Assembly: GCF_018883605.1 (NCBI RefSeq)
Contig: NZ_JAHLEM010000012.1
Location: forward strand, 1-64,000
DNA from: Streptomyces niphimycinicus
GTDB taxonomy: Bacteria; Actinomycetota; Actinomycetes; Streptomycetales; Streptomycetaceae
Direction: 5' to 3'
Length of the DNA: 64,000 nucleotides
Made by a program: the position numbers and the translations under genes. Within the stretch, counting starts at the first letter, position 1, and the number at the start of each line of letters is the position of its first letter. The notes beneath the pieces are model-generated. The model had not been told where the DNA came from, searched no databases, and saw nothing but the letters and a program-made list of their open reading frames with translations. This document shows positions 45,114 through 63,956 of the stretch, in pieces.

Positions 45114-45832
45114 ATCGTCTCACTGGTGTATCAGGTCACACGGAAGCTGCTCTCGGTTCCAGCGGTGTTGCTGCGTCGGCAGACGGCCAGAGACGCTGAG
45201 TTGCTCGTGCTCCGGTACGAGAACGCGGTGCTGCGCAGGCAACTTGCGAGTCCGGTGTGGTTGCACTTGCCGAAAATATCATCCGCCCTGGTGGGAGGCG
45301 GTGTGCGCGGTGCACGGGAGGTCGACCGGCGCAGTCGCCCGGGCGGGCGCTCTCGCGAGGCTGGCGCTCGCGGCGGCAAGATGATCGACCGTGTTGTGGG
45401 TGGCACAGGCCGCGAAGAACCTTGTCATGGATCTTGAGGACGTGGGCTGCCGAGCGCGGTTCGTGATCAGGGACCGGGACGGGAAGTTCCCCGACCCTGT
45501 TCGATGCCATTCTGGCGGATGCGGGGATCGAGGTCGTCCTGAGCGGCGTTCAGATGCCGTGAATGAACTCGCTCATGGAAGGGTGGGTGCAGACCTGCCG
45601 ACGGGAACTCCTGGACCGCACCCTGATCTGGAACCACCGGCACCTGCTCCACGCCCTGCGCGAGTTCGAGCAGTTCTACAACGGACACCGGCCACACGAG
45701 GGCATCGCCAACGCCCGCCCGCTGCACCCGTTACCGCCAGCGATCGCCGATCCGGAGAAGATCACCCGCCTCAAGATACGACGTCGTGATCGCCTCGGCG
45801 GCATCCTCCACGAATACCGACATGCCGCATGA
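45114..45832 (+). pseudogene. Decayed rve-type transposase with intact 3' end
   Basis: N-terminus VYQVTRKLLSVPAVLLRRQT and AELLVLRYENAVLRRQLASP; the central part is deleted; then NLVMDLEDVGCRARFVIRDRDG, a frameshift, VVLSGVQMP, a stop codon, and a well-kept tail (ELLDRTLIWNHRHLLHALRE, IRRRDRLGGILHEYRHAA-stop at 45830). The sequence after the stop contains GAGGTTTCCGGCAA (45844-45857), the inverse of the terminus seen in the 25.6 and 30.9 kb scars. It is the best-preserved copy of this element type in the window. Confidence 0.85.
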
Positions 45833-47714: not shown

Positions 47715-48020
47715 ATGGGGCGTCGACCGAGTGCGTTCGTCAGGCCGGTTCGTATGGAGGAGGGCCGGAAGCTGTAGCAGATCAGCCGAACCGCCCAAAA
47801 CCCGGTTCGGCTGCGCCGGGCGGTCGTGCTGCTGATGTCTGCCCAGGGCCAGACGGTCAAGGACATCACCACGCTGATGCAGGTCGGCGAGGACTACGTC
47901 CGCGATGTCAGCCACGCTTTCAGCGAGCGGGGGTTCGACGCGCTGGACCCGAAATGGAGCGCGGGACGACCCAGGACGATCAGTGAAGAGGTGCGCGAGC
48001 ACATCTGCCTGATCGCCCGG
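47715..48020 (+). pseudogene. IS630-family transposase N-terminal fragment
   Basis: ATG 47715 begins MGRRPSAFVRPVRMEEGRKL, followed by an in-frame TAG, then ISRTAQNPVRLRRAVVLLMS and GFDALDPKWSAGRPRTISEE. This is the N-terminal helix-turn-helix region of an IS630-type transposase. The DDE domain is absent. Confidence 0.78.
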
Positions 48021-48167
48021 ACGTCCCCCGCCGGGGTAGCGATGGACTGCGCAGGGTCGTACACCATGCGGGCCCACCGCTCCGGATCGTCGTCCCGGCG
48101 GAACGGCCGGTAGACGCCGCGAGGGGTGTGTTGTCGGTGGCTGAGCCTCCAGGGCCGCGCAGCCAAG

Positions 48168-48200
48168 CCCTTCATGTGGCGAGGCCCACCACATGAAGGG
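48168..48200 (-). terminator. 12-bp hairpin after the ammonia-lyase-like gene
   Basis: CCCTTCATGTGG / CCACATGAAGGG with a 9-base loop, 14 bases beyond the minus-strand stop at 48215. Confidence 0.6.
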
Positions 48201-48214
48201 AATACAGCCCGACC

Positions 48215-49756
48215 TCAGCGGTGCAGCGGGCCAACCACGTCCTCGACGACCCGCAGCGCCTCCCCGCTGCGCACGAGCTCGGCGATGTGCTCTATATCGC
48301 CGTGGAAGACCCGGTCCTCGTCGACGGTCGGTACGGTCTCCCGGATCCTGGCCCGCAGCGCCTGCGTTGCCGGCGAGGGCAGGAGCGGCGCGAGCAGGTC
48401 GAGCGCCTGCACGGCGCACATCACCTCGATCGCTACGACGTAGCCGAGCTTGCGTGCCGCCCGGTAGGCCTTCAGCGCCGCCAGATAGGCGTTGCTGATC
48501 GTGTCCTCCTGGTTGGCCGAGGTGGTAACGGTGTCCGCGGTTGCCGGCACCGCCATGCCGCGCAGCTCCATGGTCAGCGCGGCGGCCGTGTACTGCGCGA
48601 TCATGTAGCCACTGTTGAGTCCTGGCCGGCGAACCAGGAAAGCGGGCAGCTCGCTGAAGTTGTTGTTGACCATGCGGTCGGTGCGGCGCTCGGACATCTT
48701 GGCCAGCACGGTCATCGCGTTCACCATGGTGTCGGCCTGGATGCCGACGTACGTGCTGTCGAAGTTTCCCCCGCTCAGCGCCACCCCGTCCGCGCCCTCG
48801 GGGTGAATGACCGGGTTGTCGCCCAACGAGTGCAGCTCCTCGACGATGACCTCCCGGGCCTGCGCGAGCGCCCGCTTCGCACCGCCGTGCACCTGCGGGA
48901 TCCCGCGCAGGCTGTAGCTGTCCTGGAGCCGATGGTCGATGAACTCGGCGCTGATCTCGCTGGACTCGGTCAGCCGTCGCAGGTTCTCGGCGACCGCGGC
49001 CTGCTCGGGGTGCCGCTTGCGCTCCTGGATCCGGGCGTCGTAGGCGCGGACGGTGCCTTTGAGTGCCTGCACCGTCAGGCTCGCGGCGACGTCGGCGGTG
49101 CTCGCCGCGAGGCCGGCGTCATAGGTGGCGAGGACGGCGATCGCGGTGACCGAGTGCGTCCCGTTGGTGAGCGACAGACCTTCCTTGCAGCCGAGCCGTG
49201 TCGGCTGCTCCCCGATCCGGGTCAACGCCTCGGCCCCGGGCAGCAGTTCGCCGCCGTACCAGGCCCGGCCCTCTCCCAGCAGCACAAGGGCCATGTGCGC
49301 CTCCGGGGCCAGGTAGCCGACGGAACCCTCGCCGGGTACGTGCGGCGTGACCTGGGCGTTGAGCATCCGTCGAAGCAGGCTCAGGGTCTCGAACCGGATG
49401 CCGGAATAGCCTTCGCCGAGGCCGACCAGCTCCATCAGCGCGATGGCACGGACGATCTCGGTGGGCAGTGGTTCACCGACCGACACGGCGTGGGAACGCA
49501 CAATATTGCGCTGTAGCTGCTCGGCATCCGCTGGGTCGATCACCTTCGTGACGTTGTCGCCGAATCCGGTGGTAACCCCGTACACCAAGCGGTTCTCAGC
49601 CAGGAAGCGCTCCACCAACGCGCGTGACTTGCGCACCCGGTCGACATAAGTCGCATCGAAATCGACCTGGGCCCCGTACCGGGCGACCGCGACGAACTGC
49701 TCGATGGTGATCGGCTCCTCACCCAAGGTGACAGCCGTGATCTCATGGGCAGGCAT
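48215..49756 (-). CDS. Histidine/aromatic ammonia-lyase homologue lacking the MIO triad
   Basis: 513 residues from ATG 49756, a normal length for the HAL/PAL family. The catalytic tyrosine is kept (YGVTTGFG, Tyr59), as are QDSYSLRGIPQVHGG and TSANQEDTISN. The family's cofactor, 4-methylidene-imidazole-5-one, is formed from Ala-Ser-Gly in GSVGASGDLAP; here residues 144-150 read GSVGYLA, so the triad is absent and the loop three residues short. It may be catalytically dead, use another mechanism, or act on a different substrate. No histidine-utilisation neighbours. Confidence 0.85.
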   Translation of the reverse strand: MPAHEITAVTLGEEPITIEQFVAVARYGAQVDFDATYVDRVRKSRALVERFLAENRLVYGVTTGFGDNVTKVIDPADAEQLQRNIVRSHAVSVGEPLPTEIVRAIALMELVGLGEGYSGIRFETLSLLRRMLNAQVTPHVPGEGSVGYLAPEAHMALVLLGEGRAWYGGELLPGAEALTRIGEQPTRLGCKEGLSLTNGTHSVTAIAVLATYDAGLAASTADVAASLTVQALKGTVRAYDARIQERKRHPEQAAVAENLRRLTESSEISAEFIDHRLQDSYSLRGIPQVHGGAKRALAQAREVIVEELHSLGDNPVIHPEGADGVALSGGNFDSTYVGIQADTMVNAMTVLAKMSERRTDRMVNNNFSELPAFLVRRPGLNSGYMIAQYTAAALTMELRGMAVPATADTVTTSANQEDTISNAYLAALKAYRAARKLGYVVAIEVMCAVQALDLLAPLLPSPATQALRARIRETVPTVDEDRVFHGDIEHIAELVRSGEALRVVEDVVGPLHR

Positions 49757-49979
49757 GGGGATCCTCTCAGGTCGGTCAGCAGCCAGCGGTGGGGTAGATG
49801 AACGGTGGCCCGCGTAGCCGGCGCCGGTCCCACCTCGGCGAGCGCGGTAAGGCTTGCCAGTCCCGATGGTGCTGCGGGAGCGGACGGCGGCTGGCTCCGT
49901 GCCGACCAGGGCGCGACCGTCCGCAGCGGGCTGCGTCAGCACGACGGCCACAGACATCCCCTTGCGCTTGACATGGTTC

Positions 49980-50000
49980 CATTCACTTGCCAGGTGAATG
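49980..50000. promoter_or_regulatory. 7-7-7 inverted repeat, operator candidate
   Basis: CATTCAC-TTGCCAG-GTGAATG lies in an AT-rich tract (up to about 50015) and 6 bases after a TTGACA (49968-49973). The form fits a TetR- or MarR-type operator for the ammonia-lyase-like gene or the broken SDR; the regulator is not nearby. Confidence 0.55.
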
Positions 50001-50039
50001 AATCATTTTATTTAAGGCTTGGCAAGGGCGGTGGGCCGA

Positions 50040-50600
50040 TGACGGGCACGCACGACTGGGACGTCTCAACGCCCGCGCCGAGGACCGCATCCGCGCCGCC
50101 CATGACACCGGCCCGCGCAACCCGCGCCCGCGAACTGGCTCGTCAGGGATTCCACGTCCTGGCCGGTGTGCGACGGGACCGTGACGCCGACGCCATCCGA
50201 TCGACCGGCATCGAGCCGGTCATCCTCGACATCACGCACTCCGAGCAGGTGGGGGCACTCGCCGCGCGGGTCGCCCGCGACTCGCGCGCTGCACGCGCTC
50301 GTCAACAACGCCGGCGTCCAGGTGAACGCCCCCTCGAAGCACTGTCGATGGCGCAGTGGCGGCAGGCGTTCGAAGTCAACCTGTTCGGCCACATCGCCGT
50401 CACTCAGGCGCTCCTGCCCGCGCTGCTGCGCAGCAAGGGCCGCGTGATCAACATCAGCTCGATCGGCGGCAAGGTCGCCATGGCCACCTACGGCGCGTAC
50501 GCCGGAAGCGCTACGGCAACCTGGTCCAGGCGGCCAACACGCTGATGGCCGCGGGCACCGCATCGGGCCTGACCGCCGACGCCGCCGCCCTGCCCGCCGG
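50040..50600 (+). pseudogene. Broken short-chain dehydrogenase
   Basis: Frame 1 gives RELARQGFHVLAGVRRD and GIEPVILDITHSEQVGALAA, then shifts near 50285; the other frame carries LHALVNNAGVQVNAP. Frame 1 resumes with EVNLFGHIAVTQALLPALL and NISSIGGKVAMATYGAYAG and shifts again to YGNLVQAANTLMAAG. The glycine-rich nucleotide-binding start is also absent. At least two frameshifts and lost ends make it inactive. Confidence 0.75.
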
Positions 50601-50639: not shown

Positions 50640-52292
50640 TCACCGCCCCGTTCCCATCCCCAGGCGTGCCGTGTGCTCCATGAGGGAGACGGTGAAGGGG
50701 TGTTCCGGAGTGGTCAGTACGCGTGGGGCCGTCCCTTGCTCGACGAGTTCTCCGGCGTCGAGGACGGCGATGTGGTGGGCGAGGGCCGCGATGTCCAGAT
50801 CATGGGTGATGAGGACCAGCGATAGGTCGTCGCGTTCACGCAGCAACTGGGCGAGGAGTTCCAGGAGGCCGCGGCGGTTGATGGTGTCGAGGCCGGAGGT
50901 GATCTCGTCGCAGACAAGGACGCGAGGCCGGGCGAGCAGGGCTCGGGCGAGGGCGGCGCGCTGGAGTTCGCCGCCGGAGAGCTGATCGGGGCGCCTGTCG
51001 GCCAGTTCCTTCGGCAGGCCGAGGCGGGTCAGGGTGGTCAGGGCCTTCTGCCGTGCCGTGCCCTTGTCGGTGCCGCGCAGGCGTACCGCGGTGCGGGCGA
51101 CCTGGTGCAGGACGGGACGGTGCTCGTCGAAGGCGGCGCGCGAGTCCTGGAAGACGTACTGCACGGCCGCCAGTTGTGCGCCGTCGCGGGTGCGCAGCGT
51201 GCGGGGCAGAGCGGTGCCGTCGAGGAGGATCTCCCCTTCGTGGTCCCGGTGGAGTCCGGCCAGGCAGCGGGCGAGCGTGGTCTTGCCGCTGCCCGAGCGG
51301 CCGACGACGGCCAGGCATGTGCCGGAGTACAGGGCGAGTTCGGGGACGCGCAGCACCGTGGTCGGGCGGCCGTGGGCGCCGCCATCGCGGTGGCGGGCGA
51401 TGAGGTCGCGTATCCGCAGGACCGGTTCCCCGATTCCGGTTGAGAGCCCGAGAGGCGTGAACTCCCTTTGGGCGGTGAGCAGTTCGCGAGTCCACGGATG
51501 GCGTGGTGTGTTCCATAGGCGTTCGGCGGGGCCCGATTCCACGACCCTTCCGGCGCGCATGACCAGGACGTCGTCGGCGAGGGCGCGGACCACGTCGAGG
51601 TCGTGGCTGAGCAGCACGACGGCGATGCCCCGTGCGGCGACGGCCGCCAGTTGGTCGACGATGCGGCTCTTGATCAGGGCGTCCTGGCCGGTGGTCGGCT
51701 CGTCGGCGACGATGACGCGGGCGCCGAGCAGGAGCGCCTGGGCAAGGACGACGCGCTGCTGCTGGCCGCCGGAGAGCTGGTGCGGGTAGCGCCGCAGCAG
51801 GGCCTCGCCGTCCGGGAGCTGGGCTTCCGACAGGGCGCGGAGGACGCGTTCGCGGGCCGCTGCCCGGCGCCGGCCGCGGGGAAGGTGGCATACCTGGGAG
51901 CGGGCGATGTCGGTCAGGAGGGCGGAGACGCGGCGGGCGGGGTTGAGGACTGCCGCCGGGTGCTGGGGGATGTAGCCGACCAGGCCCCCGGCGGCCGGAT
52001 GGACCTCGCCGCCGATCCGCGCGCCGGGCGGGTACTCACCGAGCAGGGCGAGGCCGGTGGTGGTCTTGCCGCTGCCGGAAGCGCCCACCAGGGCGGTGAC
52101 CTTGCCGGGCCGGGCCTCGAGGTTCACGCCGTCGACGATCGCCCGGCCGTCGATCTCCACGCGAAGGTCGCGGATCGCTGCGACAGGCCGGGAGGCGGGG
52201 CCGACGGGCCCGGCGCCGGGGCCGAGGAACGCGGCAGGGCCTTCGGGACCGAGAGGCGCGGCGGGGTCTGTGGTGTCGTTCTCGTGGTTCAC
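50640..52292 (-). CDS. Duplicated ABC ATPase of a nickel/peptide-type importer
   Basis: 550 residues with two complete ATPase domains, equivalent to fused DppD-DppF or CntD-CntF. First P-loop GASGSGKT (70-77), LSGGQQQ (about 173), DEPTTG (about 197); second P-loop GRSGSGKT (331-338), then LSGGELQ and DEITSGLD. Starts with a GTG overlapping the permease stop (GTGA). Last gene of the ten-gene operon. It powers import of the ligand bound by the lipoprotein at 54192-55808. Confidence 0.9.
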   Translation of the reverse strand: MNHENDTTDPAAPLGPEGPAAFLGPGAGPVGPASRPVAAIRDLRVEIDGRAIVDGVNLEARPGKVTALVGASGSGKTTTGLALLGEYPPGARIGGEVHPAAGGLVGYIPQHPAAVLNPARRVSALLTDIARSQVCHLPRGRRRAAARERVLRALSEAQLPDGEALLRRYPHQLSGGQQQRVVLAQALLLGARVIVADEPTTGQDALIKSRIVDQLAAVAARGIAVVLLSHDLDVVRALADDVLVMRAGRVVESGPAERLWNTPRHPWTRELLTAQREFTPLGLSTGIGEPVLRIRDLIARHRDGGAHGRPTTVLRVPELALYSGTCLAVVGRSGSGKTTLARCLAGLHRDHEGEILLDGTALPRTLRTRDGAQLAAVQYVFQDSRAAFDEHRPVLHQVARTAVRLRGTDKGTARQKALTTLTRLGLPKELADRRPDQLSGGELQRAALARALLARPRVLVCDEITSGLDTINRRGLLELLAQLLRERDDLSLVLITHDLDIAALAHHIAVLDAGELVEQGTAPRVLTTPEHPFTVSLMEHTARLGMGTGR

Positions 52293-53245
52293 GGACGTGG
52301 CTCTCCTGCCCGGTTCCGGTTGATCCCGCTCCCCGCGCCCCGGCCCCGTGTGGGCCGTCGGCTGCCCGCGAGTGCGGCGTCGAAGAGGAGGTTGGTGCCC
52401 ATCGTCAGGGCGACGATCAGTACGGCGGGGACGACCACGGCCCATGGCTGGACGAACAGACCGGTGCGGTTGCGGTCGACCATGACCGCCCAGTCACCGG
52501 CGTCCGGCGCGACCCCGACGCCGAGGAACGCGGCCGTGGCGACCAGGTACAGCACGCCGGTCAGCCGGGTGCCGGCGTCGGCGGCCAGGGTGCGCAGCAT
52601 GGAGCGCCCGACGTAGCCGACGGCCAGGCGCCACCAGGTCTCGCCCTGCATGCGCAGCGCCTCGACCGCCGGGCGGGCGGCGGCCTCGGCGGCGGTGGCC
52701 CGCACGATACGGACCGCGTCGGGCACGTTGACCAGCGCGACCAGCAGGGCGAGGCCGACGGCGCCGGGGGAGAACACCGAGGCGACGAGCAGGATCAGCA
52801 GCAGCGACGGCACGGCGAGCAGCACGTCCAGGGGCCGGATCAGCAGCTCCTCCAGCCAGCGGCGGTGGGTGAGCGCGCAGACCAGGCCCAGCGGGAGGGC
52901 GACGAGATAGGACAGCGCGGTGGCGGCGAGCGCGGTCAGCACGACCGGACGCCCGCCGTGCAGCACCTGCCGCCACACGTCCCGCCCCACGAAATCGGTG
53001 CCGAGCCAGTGGCCGCCTCCGAGGGTGAAGGACGCGGTCCGCGGGCCCGGGGCGCCCGCGAACACCGGCCCGAGAAGGGCGAGCACGAGGGGTACGGAGA
53101 CGACGGCGACGCCGAGTGCGAAGCGGCCCGTACGCCCTTTCGCCGCACGGCTGGGCGGCGGCATCCGGCGGATACCTGCGCCCGGGGTGCGCGACGGCCC
53201 CCGCGACGGCCCCCGCGGGGGACCCGCGACAGGAGGGAAGCTCAC
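52289..53245 (-). CDS. ABC permease, DppC type
   Basis: 318 residues from GTG 53245, overlapping the preceding stop (GTGA). About six membrane helices; GGHWLGTDFVGRDVWRQVLHGG is the conserved DppC/OppC entry motif and the ATPase-coupling EAA-like loop reads EALRMQGETWWRLAVGYVG. A long proline-rich N-terminus (about 35 residues) precedes the first helix. Partners the DppB-type permease. Confidence 0.9.
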   Translation of the reverse strand: MSFPPVAGPPRGPSRGPSRTPGAGIRRMPPPSRAAKGRTGRFALGVAVVSVPLVLALLGPVFAGAPGPRTASFTLGGGHWLGTDFVGRDVWRQVLHGGRPVVLTALAATALSYLVALPLGLVCALTHRRWLEELLIRPLDVLLAVPSLLLILLVASVFSPGAVGLALLVALVNVPDAVRIVRATAAEAAARPAVEALRMQGETWWRLAVGYVGRSMLRTLAADAGTRLTGVLYLVATAAFLGVGVAPDAGDWAVMVDRNRTGLFVQPWAVVVPAVLIVALTMGTNLLFDAALAGSRRPTRGRGAGSGINRNRAGEPRP

Positions 53246-54195
53246 GCGGCCACCCCCGCCCGGGGCACCAGCCGATGGGTCACCAGGTCCGCGCCCAGGT
53301 TCAGGACGACGGTCAGGACGCCGAAGACGACGGCGAGGCCCTGGACGACGGGCACGTCCCGCTCGGCGACGGCGTTGAGCAGGACAGTCCCCAGGCCCGG
53401 GATCACATACAGGGCCTCCACGACGACGACGCCGCACAGCAGCCAGTCGATCGTGCGGGCCAACTGCTGGGCGGCGGGAGCGAGGGCGGCAGGCAGGGCG
53501 TGGGCGTAACGGACCTTGGCCCCGGACACGCCGTAGCGCCGGGCCTGCGCCACATATGGAGAGGCGAGCGCGTCGACCATGCCGGCGCGCACCAGCCGGG
53601 ACAGCGAGCACACCGGCCGGGACAGCAGGACGAGCACGGGCAGTACGAGCGCGGCCGGGTGGCCGAGCAGGTCGGTGCCGTAGCCGACGGCGGTCGGCGG
53701 CAGCCAGTCCAGCCGGAGCGCGAGGACGGTCACCAGCAGCACTCCGAGGGCGAATTCGGGCACCGCGTACACCGCGAGCGTCACGGAGCTGACCAGCCGG
53801 TCGACCAGGCGGCCTTCGTACCGTGCGGCCAGCACCCCGAGGCCGAAGCCGGCCGGGACGAGCAGCGCCACGGTGATCGCGGCCAGCAGCAGGGTCGGCC
53901 CGAAGCCGTCGGCGAGGTACGTGCTGACCGGGCGGCCGGAGGTGAGCGAGGTCCCGAGGTCGCCGTGGAGCAAGCCCACGGCCCAGTCGGCCAGCCGCTC
54001 GTGGGCGGGCCGGTCCAGGTGGAGGGCCGCACGGATGGCCGCGATGCGTGCGGGGTCGGGCTGGTCGCCGGCCAGGGCGACCGCGGCATCGCCCGGCAGC
54101 GCCTCGGTGAGCGCGAAGACCAGCAGCACCACGGCCACGGTCTGCGCGACGCCGAGCAGCAGCCGCCGGGCGACGAAGGAGCGCAGTCCGCTCAC
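53242..54195 (-). CDS. ABC permease, DppB type
   Basis: About 317 residues. GTG 54195 overlaps the upstream stop as GTGA, consistent with the other joints in this operon; GTG 54204 is the alternative. Six helices, with RRLLLGVAQTVAVVLLVFAL as helix 1 and the conserved DppB-type segments RPAHERLADWAVGLLHGDLG and ARRYGVSGAKVRYAHALP. Forms the membrane channel with the DppC-type protein. Confidence 0.9.
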   Translation of the reverse strand: MSGLRSFVARRLLLGVAQTVAVVLLVFALTEALPGDAAVALAGDQPDPARIAAIRAALHLDRPAHERLADWAVGLLHGDLGTSLTSGRPVSTYLADGFGPTLLLAAITVALLVPAGFGLGVLAARYEGRLVDRLVSSVTLAVYAVPEFALGVLLVTVLALRLDWLPPTAVGYGTDLLGHPAALVLPVLVLLSRPVCSLSRLVRAGMVDALASPYVAQARRYGVSGAKVRYAHALPAALAPAAQQLARTIDWLLCGVVVVEALYVIPGLGTVLLNAVAERDVPVVQGLAVVFGVLTVVLNLGADLVTHRLVPRAGVAA

Positions 54196-55808
54196 GCGAG
54201 CCACACCCTGTCGAAGCGTGCCCAGTCGAGGGTGTTGGCGGGTGCCTTGGGTTCAACTCCCCTGACCTTGCGCGCGGTTCCGAGGATCCAGTCGGCGAAG
54301 CCCCAGACCAGGAAGCCACCTTCGGAGTACAGGCGGCGCTGCATGCGTTCGTAGATGGCGGCGCGCTCGGCCCTGTCCTTCGTGGACTGGGCCCGCTGGT
54401 AGAGCGCGTCGAAGTCCTTGTGGTGCCACTTGGTGGCGTTCGTGGTGGAGCCGGTGAGCAGCCGCTGGGAGATGTGGGCCTCGATGGGCATGGCACCGGA
54501 GCGGTAGGAGCACAGGGTGCCGCCGTTCAGGATGTCGCTCCAGTACGAGTCCTTGCTGCCCATCTTCACGTCGATCGTGACGCCCGCCTTCGCGGCCTGG
54601 TCGCGGAAGATGCCGGCGGACTCGGTGAACCCGGCGGCCACCGCCGAGGTGTAGAGGGTGACCTTCAGCTTCTCGGCGCCGGCCGCCTTCAGCAGGGCGC
54701 GGGCCCGGTCGAGGTCCCGCTCGCGTTGCGGGAGGCTGTCGGCGTAGTACTCGTAGCCCTTGCCGAACAGATCGTTGCCGATCACCCCCGCGCCCGACAG
54801 GGCGCCGTCGAGGAGTTCCTTGCGGTCGGCGATCAGGAAGAACGCCTGGCGCACCCGCTTGTCGTCGAAGGGGGGCCGGTCGGTCTTCATCGCGAACCCC
54901 TGCATGTCGCTGCCCCGGAGCCGGACGATGGTGATCTGCCCCTTGCCCTCGTGGGCGCGGGCGGTGGTGGGGTGGAGTTCGTGGGCGTACTCCACCTGTC
55001 CGCCCAGCAGTGCGTTGACCCGGGCGGACTCCTCGTTGGCGACGATGAACTCGAGCTCGTCGAGGTGCGGGGCGCCGTCCCAGTAGTCCCCATTGCGGCG
55101 GAAGACGGCCGACCGGCCGGGGGCGAAGGACACGAAGCGGAACGGGCCGGAGCCGATCGGCTTCGTGTCGAAGTCGGTGGCGTCCTGGGGCACGATGTAC
55201 GCGCCGAACGCGGCCAGCACGTTGGGGAATTCGGCGGTGGGCCGCTTGAGGACGAACTCGATGCCCCGTTCGCCGGTCGCGTGGCTCGCGTCGAGGTCGA
55301 TGGGTTCCAGGGACGCCTTGGCGCGGAACGCCTTCTTGGGATCGGTGATCCGGCGGTAGCTGTGGAGCACGTCCTTGGCGGTGACCGGCCGACCGTCGTG
55401 GAACGTGGCCCTGCGGAGGGTGATCTGCCACCGGTCCAGGGTCTTGTTCGCCTCCCACTTCTCGGCGAGGCGGGGCTGGGCGGACAGGTCGGGGCCGTAG
55501 TCGGCGAGTTTGTCGTAGAGGGCCTTCGCGCGGGCGACGTCGGCGAAGAGGTTGGCCAGGTGCGGGTCGAGGGTCTCGCTCGCACCGCCGCCGGCGAACG
55601 CGGCGCGTAGCCGTCCGCCACGCTGTGGGGTACCGGTGCTGCCGCCCCCTCCCGCGGTGTCGTCGGCGCCGCCGCATCCGGTGAGGGCGAAGGCGCCGAG
55701 TGATGCGGCGCCGGCGGCGAGGAAGCCGCGGCGGCGCAGGCCGGGGAAGTGGTGCTCGTCCACGTGATCGCCCACGGGGCGAAGGTGGCGGGCGGGTTCG
55801 TCATGCAT
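54192..55808 (-). CDS. Extracellular substrate-binding lipoprotein (SBP_bac_5)
   Basis: 538 residues from ATG 55808. Twin-arginine-like RRRGF (25-29) and lipobox LTGC (Cys45), so exported, possibly folded via Tat, and lipidated. The mature protein is a family 5 binding protein (KWEANKTLDRWQITLRRATF, GSGPFRFVSF). This family binds peptides, nickel chelates and opine metallophores such as staphylopine (CntA). In this operon it most probably binds the metal-loaded product of the biosynthetic genes; this is inference. Confidence 0.88.
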   Translation of the reverse strand: MHDEPARHLRPVGDHVDEHHFPGLRRRGFLAAGAASLGAFALTGCGGADDTAGGGGSTGTPQRGGRLRAAFAGGGASETLDPHLANLFADVARAKALYDKLADYGPDLSAQPRLAEKWEANKTLDRWQITLRRATFHDGRPVTAKDVLHSYRRITDPKKAFRAKASLEPIDLDASHATGERGIEFVLKRPTAEFPNVLAAFGAYIVPQDATDFDTKPIGSGPFRFVSFAPGRSAVFRRNGDYWDGAPHLDELEFIVANEESARVNALLGGQVEYAHELHPTTARAHEGKGQITIVRLRGSDMQGFAMKTDRPPFDDKRVRQAFFLIADRKELLDGALSGAGVIGNDLFGKGYEYYADSLPQRERDLDRARALLKAAGAEKLKVTLYTSAVAAGFTESAGIFRDQAAKAGVTIDVKMGSKDSYWSDILNGGTLCSYRSGAMPIEAHISQRLLTGSTTNATKWHHKDFDALYQRAQSTKDRAERAAIYERMQRRLYSEGGFLVWGFADWILGTARKVRGVEPKAPANTLDWARFDRVWLA

Positions 55809-55870
55809 GCGGGTGTCCTCGGGGTGTGGGAAGTGCCGGTGGGATACGGGGTGGGCGTCGGGTGTGGCCC

Positions 55871-56695
55871 TCAGGGCGTCGAGGGGGCCGGCTCGGTGAC
55901 GCGGGCCACCAGGTGCAGCCGGTCGGCGTCGGTCGTACGGCCGGGGGAGTGGCCCTCGCGCCAGGGCGGCTCGGTGCGCGGACCTGGCCCGTCGTGCAGC
56001 TCCAGGACCTCGAAGCCATGGACGGCCAGGAGGTGGCGCAGCTCCTGCGGGAAGAGCAGCCGCCACGCGGAGCGCTGTTCCACGGGCGCGGATCCGTCGT
56101 CCGCGGTCCATACGCGGGTACGGCGCAGGAGCTGGGCCGTGCGGTCCACCGTGAGCGTGGTGGTGGACCGGTAGGCGGTGCCCTGCCAGGTGAACTCGCT
56201 GACCGTGGGCGCGTCGAGCAGGTCCGTACGGCCGAGGAAGCAGGCGCCGTTGCGCATCTCCGCGATGAGCAGCCCGCCCGGGACGAGGGCGCGTCGGCAG
56301 GACGACAGGAAGCCGTCGAGCTGGGCGTTGGTGTGGCAGTACAGCAGTGCGCTGTCCAGGCACACCACGGCGTCGGACACGCCCCGGCCCAGGTCGAACG
56401 CGTGCAGGTCGGCGCGGACGTACTCGGGTCCGGGGTGGTGCCCGCGGGCGTGTGCGAGCATCGCCTCGGAGAGGTCGGCGCCGGTCACCTCGCGGCCCGC
56501 GCCGTGGAGGTGGGCGGCGTCGCGGCCGGTGCCGCAGCCCAGGTCCAGGACGCGCGGTCCGGCGCCGTGCCGGCGCAGGCAGTCCTCCGTCCAGCGGCCG
56601 GCCAGCCGCTGGGGGTCGGGAAACCTGGCCTCGTACAGCTCGGGGTTGTCGGTGAGCAGATTGTGCGCGTCCGCGCCTGCCGTGGTGGTCGTCAT
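55871..56695 (-). CDS. Class I SAM-dependent methyltransferase-fold enzyme
   Basis: 274 residues. SAM motif I VLDLGCGTG (49-57), acidic motif II TGADLSEAML, motif III YVRADLHAFDL. The ATG overlaps the exporter gene's stop (ATGA). Within a metallophore-like operon it could methylate the product or, like CntL in staphylopine synthesis, transfer another group from SAM; sequence alone does not decide. It lies 62 bases before the binding-protein gene, the largest gap in the operon. Confidence 0.82.
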   Translation of the reverse strand: MTTTTAGADAHNLLTDNPELYEARFPDPQRLAGRWTEDCLRRHGAGPRVLDLGCGTGRDAAHLHGAGREVTGADLSEAMLAHARGHHPGPEYVRADLHAFDLGRGVSDAVVCLDSALLYCHTNAQLDGFLSSCRRALVPGGLLIAEMRNGACFLGRTDLLDAPTVSEFTWQGTAYRSTTTLTVDRTAQLLRRTRVWTADDGSAPVEQRSAWRLLFPQELRHLLAVHGFEVLELHDGPGPRTEPPWREGHSPGRTTDADRLHLVARVTEPAPSTP

Positions 56696-60159: not shown

Positions 60160-61064
60160 CGGGCACCTCCGGGGCGGTCGGCGCGGTAGTGGTGGACGGT
60201 GCCGGGGCCGCCGTCCAGCCAGAAGAACGGGTACGGTTCGGCGCACACCGCGCTCACCCCGCGTCCCAGGAGCCGGGGCAGTACGGCGCTGCCGGTCTGC
60301 GCGAACAGCACCAGCCGCTTGCCGTGCCGCAGCGCGTGCTCCCGCAGTGGCTCGAAGGTCCCGTTGCCCAGGGTCATCCCGGAGACGAGCAGGGCGTCGC
60401 AGCGGGCGGCCGCGGCGAGCGCGTTGGTGACGACCGGCTCGTCCCACTCCGTCACCCCGCCCTTGAGGTCACACGGCGCATAGCCGATTCCGTGCGAACG
60501 AAGCTGCTCCAGAAGGGAGTTGACGACGCCGACCACGAGCACCGTCGCCCCCGGCGGCAGGTCGAGCAACTCGACGACGGCCCGCGCCCGCGCCCGGGAC
60601 TTCTCCAGCGACGTCCCGGCGGGGAGCGCGACCGGACGGGCCCCGTGCTCCGGAGTGTGCGGAGTGATGTGCATCAGGTAGGCGTCGAGCGCGGCCACGC
60701 GCACCGGGAGCAGCGGATGGTCCAAGAGCTCGGCCACATCGGCGCCGACACACTCCTCCACGGCGCTGTCGGACAGGGCGCCGGGCTCGACCGCGCACGA
60801 CCCGACGGCCCCGGCGAGCCGCAGGCTGAGCACCTCGTTGCGGTAGCCGGTGCCGCGCCCGTCGTGCCGTACGGCCTGCCGCGTGGTGAAGGCCACGGCG
60901 ATCCGCCGAGTGCGTGGGTCGGGCCCGAGTTCGCCGGCCCGGACACGTGTCACGAGATCGTCGTACGTCCGCGCGCGGGCCGCGGAAGGGACCCGGGCGG
61001 AGTCGACGGCGGATATGCCGGAGGGGTCGGATATGCCGGAGGTGTCGGAGGTGGCGGCGGTCAT
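60156..61064 (-). CDS. DUF364-like putative metal-chelation protein
   Basis: 302 residues. N-terminal region to about 110 resembles the DUF4213-like part (RNEVLSLRLAGAVGSCAVEP); the C-terminal Rossmann-like domain has ATVLVVGVVNSLLEQLR, LLVSGMTLGNGTFEPLREHA and LVLFAQTGSAVLPRLL, as in DUF364 proteins proposed to bind heavy metals or a cofactor. No defined enzyme activity is known. ATG overlaps the ATP-grasp stop (ATGA). Its place inside a metal-related operon supports a role in metallophore assembly or metal handling. Confidence 0.75.
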   Translation of the reverse strand: MTAATSDTSGISDPSGISAVDSARVPSAARARTYDDLVTRVRAGELGPDPRTRRIAVAFTTRQAVRHDGRGTGYRNEVLSLRLAGAVGSCAVEPGALSDSAVEECVGADVAELLDHPLLPVRVAALDAYLMHITPHTPEHGARPVALPAGTSLEKSRARARAVVELLDLPPGATVLVVGVVNSLLEQLRSHGIGYAPCDLKGGVTEWDEPVVTNALAAAARCDALLVSGMTLGNGTFEPLREHALRHGKRLVLFAQTGSAVLPRLLGRGVSAVCAEPYPFFWLDGGPGTVHHYRADRPGGAR

Positions 61065-62317
61065 CGGATCACCAGTCCGGATCGCACCTCGGCGAGCAGC
61101 GCCTCGACCCGGTCCCGGGCTCCGGCCCCCTCCCGGTCCCCGGCCATCACATGCCCGAGGTACTCGTTGTTGCTGCCCGCCGCCTTCACCTGCCTGCCGG
61201 GCTCCGCGAGTTGCACCTCCAGCACGCCGGGAGCATCCCGCAGCCCCGCGCCGTCCAGCGAGGCGAGTGTGCCCGTGCGCTCCGGCACGAGGAATCCGAT
61301 GGCGGCGCTGCGCAGCCCGGTGTCCGTGCGCCGTAGATCGGGGGCGCGCCCCAGGGCCACGTCCACGCAGGCGGCGGCGAGGTCGGTGCCGGTGACGTGG
61401 CGGACGAGTTCGGTGATGCGGTTCCCGGCGGGGCGCGGGTTGACCTCGACCACGCGCGGCCCGGCGGAGGTGAGCTTGATCTCGGTGTGCGCCACCACAC
61501 CGTCGGTCAGCCCGAGCGCCTTGAGCGCACCCACCGCGGTCTGCTCGGCCGCCGCCGTGTCGACGGCCGTCAGCGCGGCGGGGAACATATGCCCGGTCTC
61601 GATGAACGCGGGCGCCCCGCCGACGCTCTTGTCGGTCACGCCCACCACATGGACCGCGCCCCCGTACGAGACCGTCTCGACACTCACCTCGGGGCCGTCC
61701 AGCAGCTCTTCGAGCAGGACCGCGGGCGTGCGTCGCTGGCCGCGCGCGTTGACCGGAAAGTCGGCCAACGCCGCGAAAGCGGAGGCGAGTTGGGACTCAT
61801 CGTCCACGCGCCGTACGTACATGCCCGCACACAGGTCGACGGGCTTTACGACCAGCGGGTAGCCGATCTCCCCCGCGGCCCGGGCGATGTCGGCCCACTC
61901 CTCGTGCACGGCGAAGCGGGGCCCGGGCACTCCGGCCTCAGCGAGGACGCGGCGCGTGGCGTCCTTGCGGCAGGCGTTCTGGACCGCCTCGGGGGCCGGG
62001 CCGGGCAGGCCGAGGTGCCCGGCTATCCGCGCGACCGTCGGCAGGTAGTAGTCGCAGGACGTGATCGCCCCGTCGAAGCCGAACACCGCGTGCAGCCGCT
62101 CGACCTCCGGCAGCAGCGCCTCGGTGTCATTGGTGTCGGCAGTGATCACGTTGCGCGCCCCGAGCAGCGGGTGCGCCGTGCCCTCGGGGGCGGAGCGCAG
62201 GTAGTGGTGCAGGTCGCGGGTGAGGAAGGTGAACTCGTGCCCGCTCTCGCGTATCGCCCGTGGCAGCAGTCTGCTCATCGATCCGACCCAGCTCTCTACC
62301 ACCAACAGATGAGCCAC
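61061..62317 (-). CDS. ATP-grasp ligase
   Basis: 418 residues from GTG 62317, preceded by AAGGGGAG. ATP-grasp features: VVKPVDLCAG (Lys158), GPEVSVETVSYGG, and the metal-binding EIKLTSAGPRVVEVNPRPAGN (Glu279, Glu291, Asn293). These enzymes join a carboxylate to an amine via acyl phosphate, as in L-amino acid ligases. First gene of the operon, so it likely makes the dipeptide later epimerised. The Zur/Fur-like box lies 47-61 bases upstream of the start. Confidence 0.9.
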   Translation of the reverse strand: MAHLLVVESWVGSMSRLLPRAIRESGHEFTFLTRDLHHYLRSAPEGTAHPLLGARNVITADTNDTEALLPEVERLHAVFGFDGAITSCDYYLPTVARIAGHLGLPGPAPEAVQNACRKDATRRVLAEAGVPGPRFAVHEEWADIARAAGEIGYPLVVKPVDLCAGMYVRRVDDESQLASAFAALADFPVNARGQRRTPAVLLEELLDGPEVSVETVSYGGAVHVVGVTDKSVGGAPAFIETGHMFPAALTAVDTAAAEQTAVGALKALGLTDGVVAHTEIKLTSAGPRVVEVNPRPAGNRITELVRHVTGTDLAAACVDVALGRAPDLRRTDTGLRSAAIGFLVPERTGTLASLDGAGLRDAPGVLEVQLAEPGRQVKAAGSNNEYLGHVMAGDREGAGARDRVEALLAEVRSGLVIR

Positions 62318-62363
62318 GGCTCCCCTTTTCCATTCGTGTGGGATAACGTGGCGAACACGGTAT

Positions 62364-62378
62364 CGATAATCGTTTTCA
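62364..62378. promoter_or_regulatory. Zur/Fur-like operator
   Basis: CGATAATCGTTTTCA is an imperfect palindrome of TGA-AA---TT-TCA form and runs on to TTGTCA, resembling Fur-family (Zur, FurA) boxes of actinobacteria. It sits between the ATP-grasp gene and the divergent hydrolase. Confidence 0.65.
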
Positions 62379-62417
62379 TTGTCATCTGACTCCGTGTGCA
62401 CCGAGGAAGAAATCGTT

Positions 62418-63956
62418 GTGACCTCACCCACGCACCGCACGGCCCCGCTGTGTGCCCTGGCGGCCATCGCCGCGACCCTCGCCCCCGCCGCGCCCGCCCA
62501 GTCCGCCGCCCGTGTCCCCGCCGCCGGTTCGGTATCCGCACTCCGCTTCGGCGCCTGCCCCGCATCCGTACCCGAGCCGCCCGAACCGGAGCGCGTCGAA
62601 TGCGGGCGGCTGGGCGTGCCGCTGGACTGGAACCGCCCCCGCGGACCACGCATCGAGATCGCCGTCTCGCGCGTCCGGGCCTCGGGGGCACCCGCCGAGC
62701 GGCGCGGCATCCTGCTGGTCAACCCCGGTGGGCCGGGCGGCTCCGGGCTCCCCTACGCGGTCACCAAGCGGGCCAAACTCCCGGTGAGCGTGCGCCGTTC
62801 GTACGACGTCATCGGCTTCGACCCGCGCGGCGTCGGGCAGAGCGCCCCCGTCGACTGCGGCCCGATGGGCGGTCTCTTCGCCGCCCCGGGCGCGGACCCC
62901 GTGCCCGTCGGCCCGACGGCCGAGCGGGCCCACCTGGTGTCACTGCGCAACCTGGCCGACGACTGCGCGGCGGGCGCCGGGGACGTATCGCGGTACCTGT
63001 CGACGGAACAGACCGCCCGGGACATGGACGCGATACGCGCCGCGCTCGGCGAACGGCGGACGAACTTCCTCGGCGTCTCCTACGGCACCTACCTCGGCGC
63101 GGCCTACGCCGCCGCCTTCCCGCACCGCACGGGCCGGATGGTCCTGGACAGCGTCGTAGGGCCCTGGAGCTGGTACCGATTCGACGTGATCCAGAGCCGG
63201 GCACTGCTGCGCCGGCGTGACACCTTCTTCGCCTGGACCGCCGCCCACGCGGACCGCTTCCGCCTGGGCGACAGCGCGGCGGCCGTACGCCGGGCCTACC
63301 TGCGCGTACGCGACGGACTCACCGCCGGTCCCGTGGACGGCTTCGGCCCCGCGGAGTTCGACCGGGCCGTGTACCGCGCCCTCGGCCGCACCGAACGCTG
63401 GGCGGGCCTCGCCGACGGCCTGCGAACCCACCTGCGCGACGGCAGCCCCGACGGACTCCGTCCCGCCAAGGACTTCGCCGACCCGGACTCACGCAACTAC
63501 GAAGCCGCCAACCGCATCGTCAAGTGCGCCGACGGCCCCGGCCCCACGCCCCGGCGGATCGTGACGGACATCCGCCGCACCCGACGCCTCGACCCCCAGC
63601 CGGTCCTCACCGGCATGGAGGCGACCACCTGCGCCTACTGGCACCACCATCCCGCCCGCCACACCCCGCTCGGCAGCCCCGACGCGCCGCCCGTTCTCCT
63701 GGTGGCCTCCGCCCACGACCCCGTCACGCCCATCGAGGGCGCGCGCCAACTGCGCCGTCTGCTTCCCGGCTCGCGCCTGGTAACGCTCGACAACGACTAC
63801 TCGCACGGGGTGTTCGCCAGCCGGGGCAATGCCTGTGTGGACGACGCCACGGCCGCCTACCTCGTCGACGGGACTGTGCCGACGGCGGATGTGCGCTGTG
63901 CGGGGCCCGGCCTGCCCGGACCGCCGCCCGCCGAGAGCAGGTCCACGCCTCGATGA
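62418..63956 (+). CDS. Secreted alpha/beta hydrolase (TAP-like peptidase family)
   Basis: 512 residues from GTG 62418, with a signal peptide ending around AQSAA. The nucleophile elbow is GVSYGTYLG; the oxyanion-side motif LLVNPGGPGGSG and the late AHDPVTPIEGARQL (Asp) and DYSHGVF (His) complete the triad. The C-terminal part is the TAP_C region. Tripeptidyl aminopeptidases of this type cleave peptides outside the cell. It is divergent from the metallophore-like operon and may be co-controlled by the same box. Confidence 0.88.
   Translation: MTSPTHRTAPLCALAAIAATLAPAAPAQSAARVPAAGSVSALRFGACPASVPEPPEPERVECGRLGVPLDWNRPRGPRIEIAVSRVRASGAPAERRGILLVNPGGPGGSGLPYAVTKRAKLPVSVRRSYDVIGFDPRGVGQSAPVDCGPMGGLFAAPGADPVPVGPTAERAHLVSLRNLADDCAAGAGDVSRYLSTEQTARDMDAIRAALGERRTNFLGVSYGTYLGAAYAAAFPHRTGRMVLDSVVGPWSWYRFDVIQSRALLRRRDTFFAWTAAHADRFRLGDSAAAVRRAYLRVRDGLTAGPVDGFGPAEFDRAVYRALGRTERWAGLADGLRTHLRDGSPDGLRPAKDFADPDSRNYEAANRIVKCADGPGPTPRRIVTDIRRTRRLDPQPVLTGMEATTCAYWHHHPARHTPLGSPDAPPVLLVASAHDPVTPIEGARQLRRLLPGSRLVTLDNDYSHGVFASRGNACVDDATAAYLVDGTVPTADVRCAGPGLPGPPPAESRSTPR

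Follow-up and report, generated by a model that had tools for sequence, protein, structure and literature searches.

We propose that the protein encoded at positions 48215 to 49756 (minus strand) of a 64,000-nucleotide stretch of Streptomyces niphimycinicus DNA, here called the window, is in all likelihood a betaine (trimethylamine) lyase of the histidine ammonia-lyase (HAL) fold that works without the MIO cofactor. Its best candidate substrate, put forward with somewhat less assurance, is hercynine, which would be split into urocanate and trimethylamine. The open reading frame, called from its PF00221 match, an AlphaFold2 model and the match of that model to HAL 1b8f, runs for 513 amino acids with no internal stops and scores 535 bits against PF00221 (cut-off 27.3). 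It is preceded by GAGAGGA (49762 to 49768, minus strand), a likely ribosome-binding site at a distance of five bases from the start (49756); some orthologues that share this leader have it too. The initial annotation, which gave no strand, had placed the sequence GSVGYLA at residues 144 to 150 in an intact frame and had listed YGVTTGFG, QDSYSLRG and TSANQED as conserved motifs; reading of the frame and of the codons GGT TCC GTC GGC TAC CTG GCC (49307 to 49327, minus strand) bore this out, and all three motifs were found. Alignment showed that the window protein reads GSVGYLAP where MIO enzymes have GSVG-[A/C/S]SG-DLAP, so that the three codons of the Ala-Ser-Gly triad are gone in frame. Tyr148 (codon TAC, 49313 to 49315, minus strand) occupies the position of the Asp found directly after the HAL triad and is invariant in a 20-member alignment of gapped proteins. 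That MIO cannot form without the triad, as had been claimed, follows from the sequence and the established chemistry of the family.

The AlphaFold2 model of the window protein (pLDDT 90.5, pTM 0.91) has the same fold as the HAL HutH of Pseudomonas putida (1b8f; Z 43.5, rmsd 2.2, 494 residues), a protein of similar length that is 38% identical across 494 aligned residues. The two proteins have the catalytic Tyr, His, Arg and Glu in common, and HutH also has in common with the Bacilli relatives of the window protein a position in a hut cluster; however, HutH carries the triad and MIO, whereas the window clade lacks the triad and is relaxed at Asn195, Tyr280 and Phe329. The window protein falls below the curated cut-off of the HutH equivalog TIGR01225 (522.1 versus 539.15) and passes that of the histidase subfamily PRK09367 (542.3 versus 524). 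The second known system is ergothionase, the ergothioneine trimethylamine-lyase of Treponema denticola (6s7j/6s7q) and Burkholderia sp. HME13, which has the fold of the model (Z 39.9, rmsd 3.1, 488 residues) and, like the window clade, no MIO triad. Ergothionase is only about 27% identical to the window protein, which is closer to HAL in sequence; a search of solved-structure sequences returned HAL first at 325.8 bits, against 177.5 for 6s7j. Release of trimethylamine by this fold without MIO is therefore already known: two papers describe ergothionase as lacking MIO and converting ergothioneine to trimethylamine and thiourocanate (PMC13405746) and as releasing these two products from ergothioneine (PMC7653990).

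The initial annotation had concluded that the protein must be inactive or use other chemistry, and the second part is strengthened by the precedent of ergothionase, in which a trimethylammonium group is eliminated without MIO. HAL binds the amino group of its substrate to MIO so that the group can leave, and it requires this electrophile because an unmodified amino group is a poor leaving group. A quaternary ammonium group departs unaided and, lacking a lone pair, cannot attack MIO; for such a substrate the cofactor would therefore be useless. Hercynine is N-alpha,N,N-trimethyl-L-histidine, the precursor of ergothioneine. In the proposed reaction, the beta proton of hercynine would be pulled by the conserved Tyr59/Glu417 region, as in HAL, Arg284 would bind the carboxylate, and trimethylamine would be expelled to leave urocanate. 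Loss of Ala-Ser-Gly together with the substitution of Tyr148 for Asp may make room for the three methyl groups, which Tyr148 would face, perhaps as an aromatic wall. The predicted product would enter the Hut pathway (HutU, HutI and HutG, the genes of which are clustered in the Bacilli) and would pass through HutU and HutI towards glutamate; the normal entry to this pathway is histidine, whereas here entry is predicted to be from trimethylated histidine.

A scan of named genomes showed the gap, GSV[G/A]Y, in all 32 loci recovered, a set biased towards the motif because one of the six peptide patterns used was YLAPEAHM. These loci comprised 13 from Streptomyces, 6 from Bacilli (a Brevibacillus MAG, Fictibacillus and four Paenibacillus), 8 from Burkholderiaceae and 5 others (C. 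symbiosum, C. transplantifaecale, a spirochaete MAG, Candidatus Adiutrix and a Eubacterium MAG); one of the 32, L030, is a frame-broken copy in which the motif is still readable. Motif-independent searches added copies in genomes G068 and G369, several paralogues and a copy on the Smac51 plasmid. (The stretch from genome G387 and L009 are the same stretch.) Loss of the nine bases through sequencing or assembly error, an exceedingly improbable explanation, was ruled out by these independent copies, since independent assemblies agree on the gap at 32 of 32 loci and the G369 copy, 98% identical, has the same gap. The initial annotation had proposed alignment with the HAL/PAL families to find a clade with the same deletion, and such a clade emerged. 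After 5 of 114 collected PF00221 rows were dropped for having identical cores, the alignment held 109 rows, none with fewer than about 380 matched residues: 59 bear the triad, [A/C/S][S/C]GD (CSG 32, ASG 24, SSG 2 and ACG 1), 37 are gapped GSV[G/A]Y and 13 have other shortened motifs, including L142, a broken and poorly aligned copy.

We examined which active-site residues are kept in these rows. Tyr59, Arg284 and Glu417 (HAL Tyr53, Arg283 and Glu414) are kept in 37/37 gapped GSVGY rows, and His83 (HAL numbering) in 36 of the 37. Asn195, Tyr280 and Phe329 (HAL numbering), which we take to be the residues that touch MIO or the amino group, show no variation in the 59 triad-bearing rows, whereas the 37 GSVGY rows keep Asn195 in 31, Tyr280 in 12 and Phe329 in 18; the 13 rows with other shortened motifs keep Asn195 in 1 and Tyr280 in 1. 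Because the relaxed residues are those presumed to contact MIO or the amino group, the loss of the cofactor looks old and tolerated. All seven of these HAL residues are kept by the window protein, by that of S. rugosispiralis and by the Burkholderiaceae proteins of the 32-locus set. Tyr281 and Phe332 are HAL-like in the window protein, unlike in most of its relatives, and its pocket may therefore differ from theirs. Simple NG86 counts between the window gene and seven Streptomyces orthologues gave dN/dS values of 0.17 to 0.33, which indicates that the protein is under purifying selection.

These observations bear on the alternative that the protein is a pseudoenzyme, a HutH that has lost its cofactor and now has a structural or regulatory role. 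Such a protein would be expected to look as this one does in two respects, as its MIO site is gone and yet it passes the PRK09367 histidase model, and 23/26 of the genomes with the gapped gene also encode a canonical, triad-bearing histidase. The universal retention of Tyr59, Arg284 and Glu417 argues against it, as do the neighbouring transporter genes, the spread of the family across phyla and the finding that in one genome, Paenibacillus alginolyticus (G215), the MIO-less gene lies within a hut cluster and is the only PF00221 gene found. We therefore consider a pseudoenzyme unlikely. The 'inactive' half of the initial annotation's conclusion is correspondingly weakened by the gap shared across phyla, the kept catalytic residues, the dN/dS values and the catabolic clusters of the Bacilli, and the sequence evidence suggests that the protein is likely an active enzyme.

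Membership in ergothionase proper was considered and rejected, as the window protein is closer in sequence to HAL and the 6s7j-type proteins stand apart in the tree. The deletion in ergothionase homologues spans a single residue and spares the Asp (GSVGEAD; GEGD in 6s7j), whereas proteins of the window clade are three residues short and have Tyr in place of Asp. Trees were built from 65 and 61 of the 109 rows, near-copies and the poorly aligned L142 having been omitted first; the 61-row tree was made without the long-branch rows L127, L130, L138 and L140 and without the motif columns. In the 65-row tree, ten 6s7j-type rows separated from the GSVGY rows with an SH-aLRT of 100. The 25 GSVGY rows grouped with a support of 82 in the 65-row tree and of 12 in the 61-row tree; without the long branch L139, 24 of the 25 grouped at 100 in both. 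C. symbiosum (L033) carries one gene of the 6s7j type (448 bits) and one of the window type (48% identical to the window protein), each adjoining its own BCCT gene; since one genome carries both types, the window clade is not ergothionase proper. Judged by sequence, the GSVGY clade is a group distinct from ergothionase, with a different deletion. The motifs differ, yet the tree does not settle whether MIO was lost twice independently, as the AU test in the 61-row set did not reject a topology in which a single branch sets all gapped rows apart (p 0.468).

In the Bacilli, the lyase gene sits among genes of histidine catabolism. In all nine Bacilli loci (L016, L017, L022, L025, L026, L034 and L157 to L159), HutU, HutI and an MFS transporter are encoded no more than about 6 kb from the gene, with HutG nearby in 7/9 and a homologue of N-methyl-amino-acid oxidase in 7/9; the gene maps of L016, L017, L022, L025, L026 and L034 each show a single PF00221 gene. 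At the Paenibacillus locus L022, the genes for an MFS transporter, the MIO-less lyase, an AraC regulator, HutG (226.8 bits, slightly short of the 229.15 cut-off), HutU, HutI, a glutamate-dehydrogenase family member, a malic-enzyme family member, HutD and the N-methyl-amino-acid oxidase homologue (454 bits; cut-off 257) follow one another in that order. Bacilli commonly keep hutH in the hut operon, and this neighbourhood could therefore in part be an ancestral inheritance from hutH.

The type of urocanase in these clusters bears on the substrate. HutU of L022 scores 999.8 bits on the hutU model and fails the thiourocanate hydratase model (705; cut-off 930), and across the six Bacilli genomes examined, the urocanases adjacent to the gene have hutU scores of 990 to 1004. 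In contrast, the thiourocanate model is passed by the urocanases near the 6s7j-type lyases of L128 (1021.5) and L129 (1006.6) and near the other gapped lyase of L127 (1031.1), the contrast resting on these three scored urocanases, with those near the L131 and L132 lyases unscored. Thus, the scored ergothionase-type partners are thiourocanate hydratases, whereas the partners of the window clade in Bacilli are canonical HutU, and Paenibacillus agri (G216) has both a canonical-type and a thiourocanate-type lyase/urocanase pair. This contrast is the chief argument for the substrate: by analogy with ergothionase, a canonical HutU points to a sulphur-free product, and hence to hercynine rather than ergothioneine.

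The same hut context, together with our finding no triad-bearing histidase in G215, could instead indicate a histidase that acts on ordinary L-histidine without MIO. Genome-wide counts speak against this reading, since the 23 of 26 genomes mentioned above retain a normal HutH; they have no need of a second histidase, which also favours the trimethylamine-lyase reading. The other three are G216, which has an Ala-Cys-Gly version, G219, which has a partial piece and a 6s7j-type copy, and G215; in the last, where no PF00221 gene was found besides the MIO-less one, that protein could be the sole histidase. In addition, the S154A mutant of PbPAL is reported to have lost its hydroamination activity completely, from which the authors exclude an MIO-independent route in that enzyme (PMC12535398). 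As removal of MIO abolishes activity there, ordinary histidine is an unlikely substrate, and we regard an MIO-free histidase as quite improbable.

A match above the hutU cut-off was present in 26/26 genomes, some of these matches being urocanase paralogues, and the window genome encodes a canonical HutU, away from the gene, and a CSG histidase. It also encodes EgtD (371.5; cut-off 290.9), which we take to be the methyltransferase that makes hercynine; the presence of HutU and EgtD fits the hercynine reading. On the other hand, hercynine serves Streptomyces in making ergothioneine, and an unregulated lyase that destroys it could be wasteful. The gene is rare, being found in 4 of 392 Streptomyces genomes (a sample of a larger group, with the window's genome among them) and in 6 of 104 genomes of the family of Paenibacillus G213.

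Hercynine as the substrate in Streptomyces is the weakest step of the proposal, being drawn from relatives only. In the flanking DNA retrieved (10 kb at most, and less where a contig ended), neither HutU nor other Hut genes were seen at 13/13 Streptomyces, 8/8 Burkholderiaceae and the 5 remaining loci, and HutU was likewise absent near the gene in G068, G369 and G387. A BCCT (betaine-type transporter) gene, which fits uptake of a betaine, is present in three of these 5 remaining loci and adjoins the lyase in L028, L032 and L033, which are clostridial or from Eubacterium; BCCT and urocanase-family partners are likewise found with ergothionase, for which, as here, trimethylamine is the expected leaving group. 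In Burkholderiaceae, all eight loci have a family-3 (cationic-amino-acid-type) binding protein gene and a LysR gene downstream, and these two are all that the eight have in common. The protein may thus perform the same MIO-free chemistry on another betaine, such as ergothioneine, S-methyl-ergothioneine or the betaine of Trp, Tyr or Phe, and the GSVGY group may hold several substrates, with the Streptomyces branch having its own. This is consistent with the Streptomyces loci lacking a Hut context, with the variation of pocket positions 280 and 329 between branches and with differing GSVGY paralogues within one genome (in L143, GSVGYLCTEAH beside BCCT and GSVGYLGVEAH; in L032, two copies). On the other side, the partner urocanase in Bacilli is canonical rather than of the thiourocanate type, and true ergothionase homologues form a separate group. 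We hold another betaine to be a real but minor possibility and keep hercynine as the preferred substrate.

The diverged GSVGY paralogues are encoded at L143 7947-9488 (-), L143 15499-17064 (-), L032 10001-11569 (+), L139 6267-7910 (-) and L160 11968-13542 (+); their motifs are GSVGYLCTEAH, GSVGYLGVEAH, GSVGYLSVEGH, GSVGYLSHMAH and GSVGYLAVEGH. Genes for a BCCT, a family-3 binding protein or a sodium symporter are found close to several of them, and these paralogues are possibly lyases for other betaines. Other variant lyases were also observed. The Brevibacillus lyase L127 4517-6100 (-) has another shortened motif, GSLGVGDLQPMAH, and a thiourocanate hydratase gene (L127 10617-12296 (-), 1031 bits) lies 4.5 kb from it; this lyase is perhaps a second kind of ergothionase. 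In Paenibacillus agri, the lyase at L130 6030-7649 (-) has Ala-Cys-Gly in place of Ala-Ser-Gly, GSVGACGDLAPLAH, and has a homologue of N-methyl-amino-acid oxidase close by. The window genome has a third PF00221 protein (G000:C517:10293-11585; L003 1399-2934 (+), L140 6192-7727 (+)), which reads GAVGTGDLAALA and is also without the full Ala-Ser-Gly triad. It shares about 30% identity with the ergothionase homologue of C. symbiosum; its gene adjoins an ABC transporter ATPase gene, with HutU about 14 kb off and a HutI-like frame beyond.

A block at 48143 to 50081 is 97.5% identical to Streptomyces G369, and the 19.9 kb compared yielded no other match longer than 300 bases; in L155, L156, L004, L006, L008 and L012 the match to the window consists of the gene only, in some with part of the leader. 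Because the gene alone matches between these stretches, it has entered at least several different places. The gene does not always travel alone: clusters of neighbouring genes are common to L004, L005, L007, L009, L010, L013 and L030, and L012 and L014 share flanks with each other. The neighbours (20 proteins, not all from Streptomyces) include a glycosidase, LacI, XRE/DUF5753, a transposase, a LigD primase and others; among the Streptomyces neighbours, none is common to all loci and none is evidently for betaines. A peptide-type ABC transporter (50640 to 56363) was rejected as part of the pathway, as it has no counterpart in the G369 stretch. Two short frames near the gene (45563 to 45832 and 47826 to 48113) appear transposase-like by eye, and L008 has a DDE transposase downstream. 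A short-chain dehydrogenase frame that runs across the leader (49805 to 50545, plus strand) covers profile positions 17 to 153 of 195 and may be a gene remnant. Farther off, the window holds an ATP-grasp L-amino-acid ligase-like gene (61061 to 62722, minus strand; ATP-grasp_4 and LAL_C2 domains) and, divergent from it with overlapping starts, an alpha/beta hydrolase frame with a TAP-like domain (62379 to 63956, plus strand).

Upstream of the gene, a 65-base element (49966 to 50030, minus strand) is, from its conservation and a genome search, a probable promoter or operator. Its core is conserved in 13/13 aligned sequences (L011 and L015 lay outside the alignment), and in the window it contains the inverted repeat TTCAC-N7-GTGAA, which is exact in 3 of the 13. 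In a search that covered gene-holding genomes only, the element occurred once per genome, beside the gene, in 12/12 Streptomyces genomes at E values of 4.1e-5 or better; five further matches at E values of 4.3 to 8.3 were at chance level. A scan for consensus promoters and terminators returned no more than chance.

Whether the GSVGY proteins constitute, alongside ergothionase, another family of betaine lyases that dispense with MIO is, taken as a whole, an evenly balanced question. On this joint reading, the core activity would convert hercynine to urocanate and trimethylamine and side branches would act on other amino-acid betaines; horizontal transfer would have carried the family into Actinomycetota, Bacillota, Pseudomonadota and gut anaerobes, its members being filed as histidine ammonia-lyase. 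In a literature search that reached few subscription journals, no paper on a hercynine lyase was found. Present models and the plasmid record label such proteins histidine ammonia-lyase, though the residues that form the cofactor are absent. If the proposal is correct, these proteins would provide a bacterial catabolic step for hercynine, leading trimethylated histidine into histidine catabolism and linking betaine uptake to the Hut pathway. They would also be an overlooked source of trimethylamine, possibly in gut clostridia, and would offer natural examples of an ammonia-lyase that drops its electrophile once the leaving group improves.
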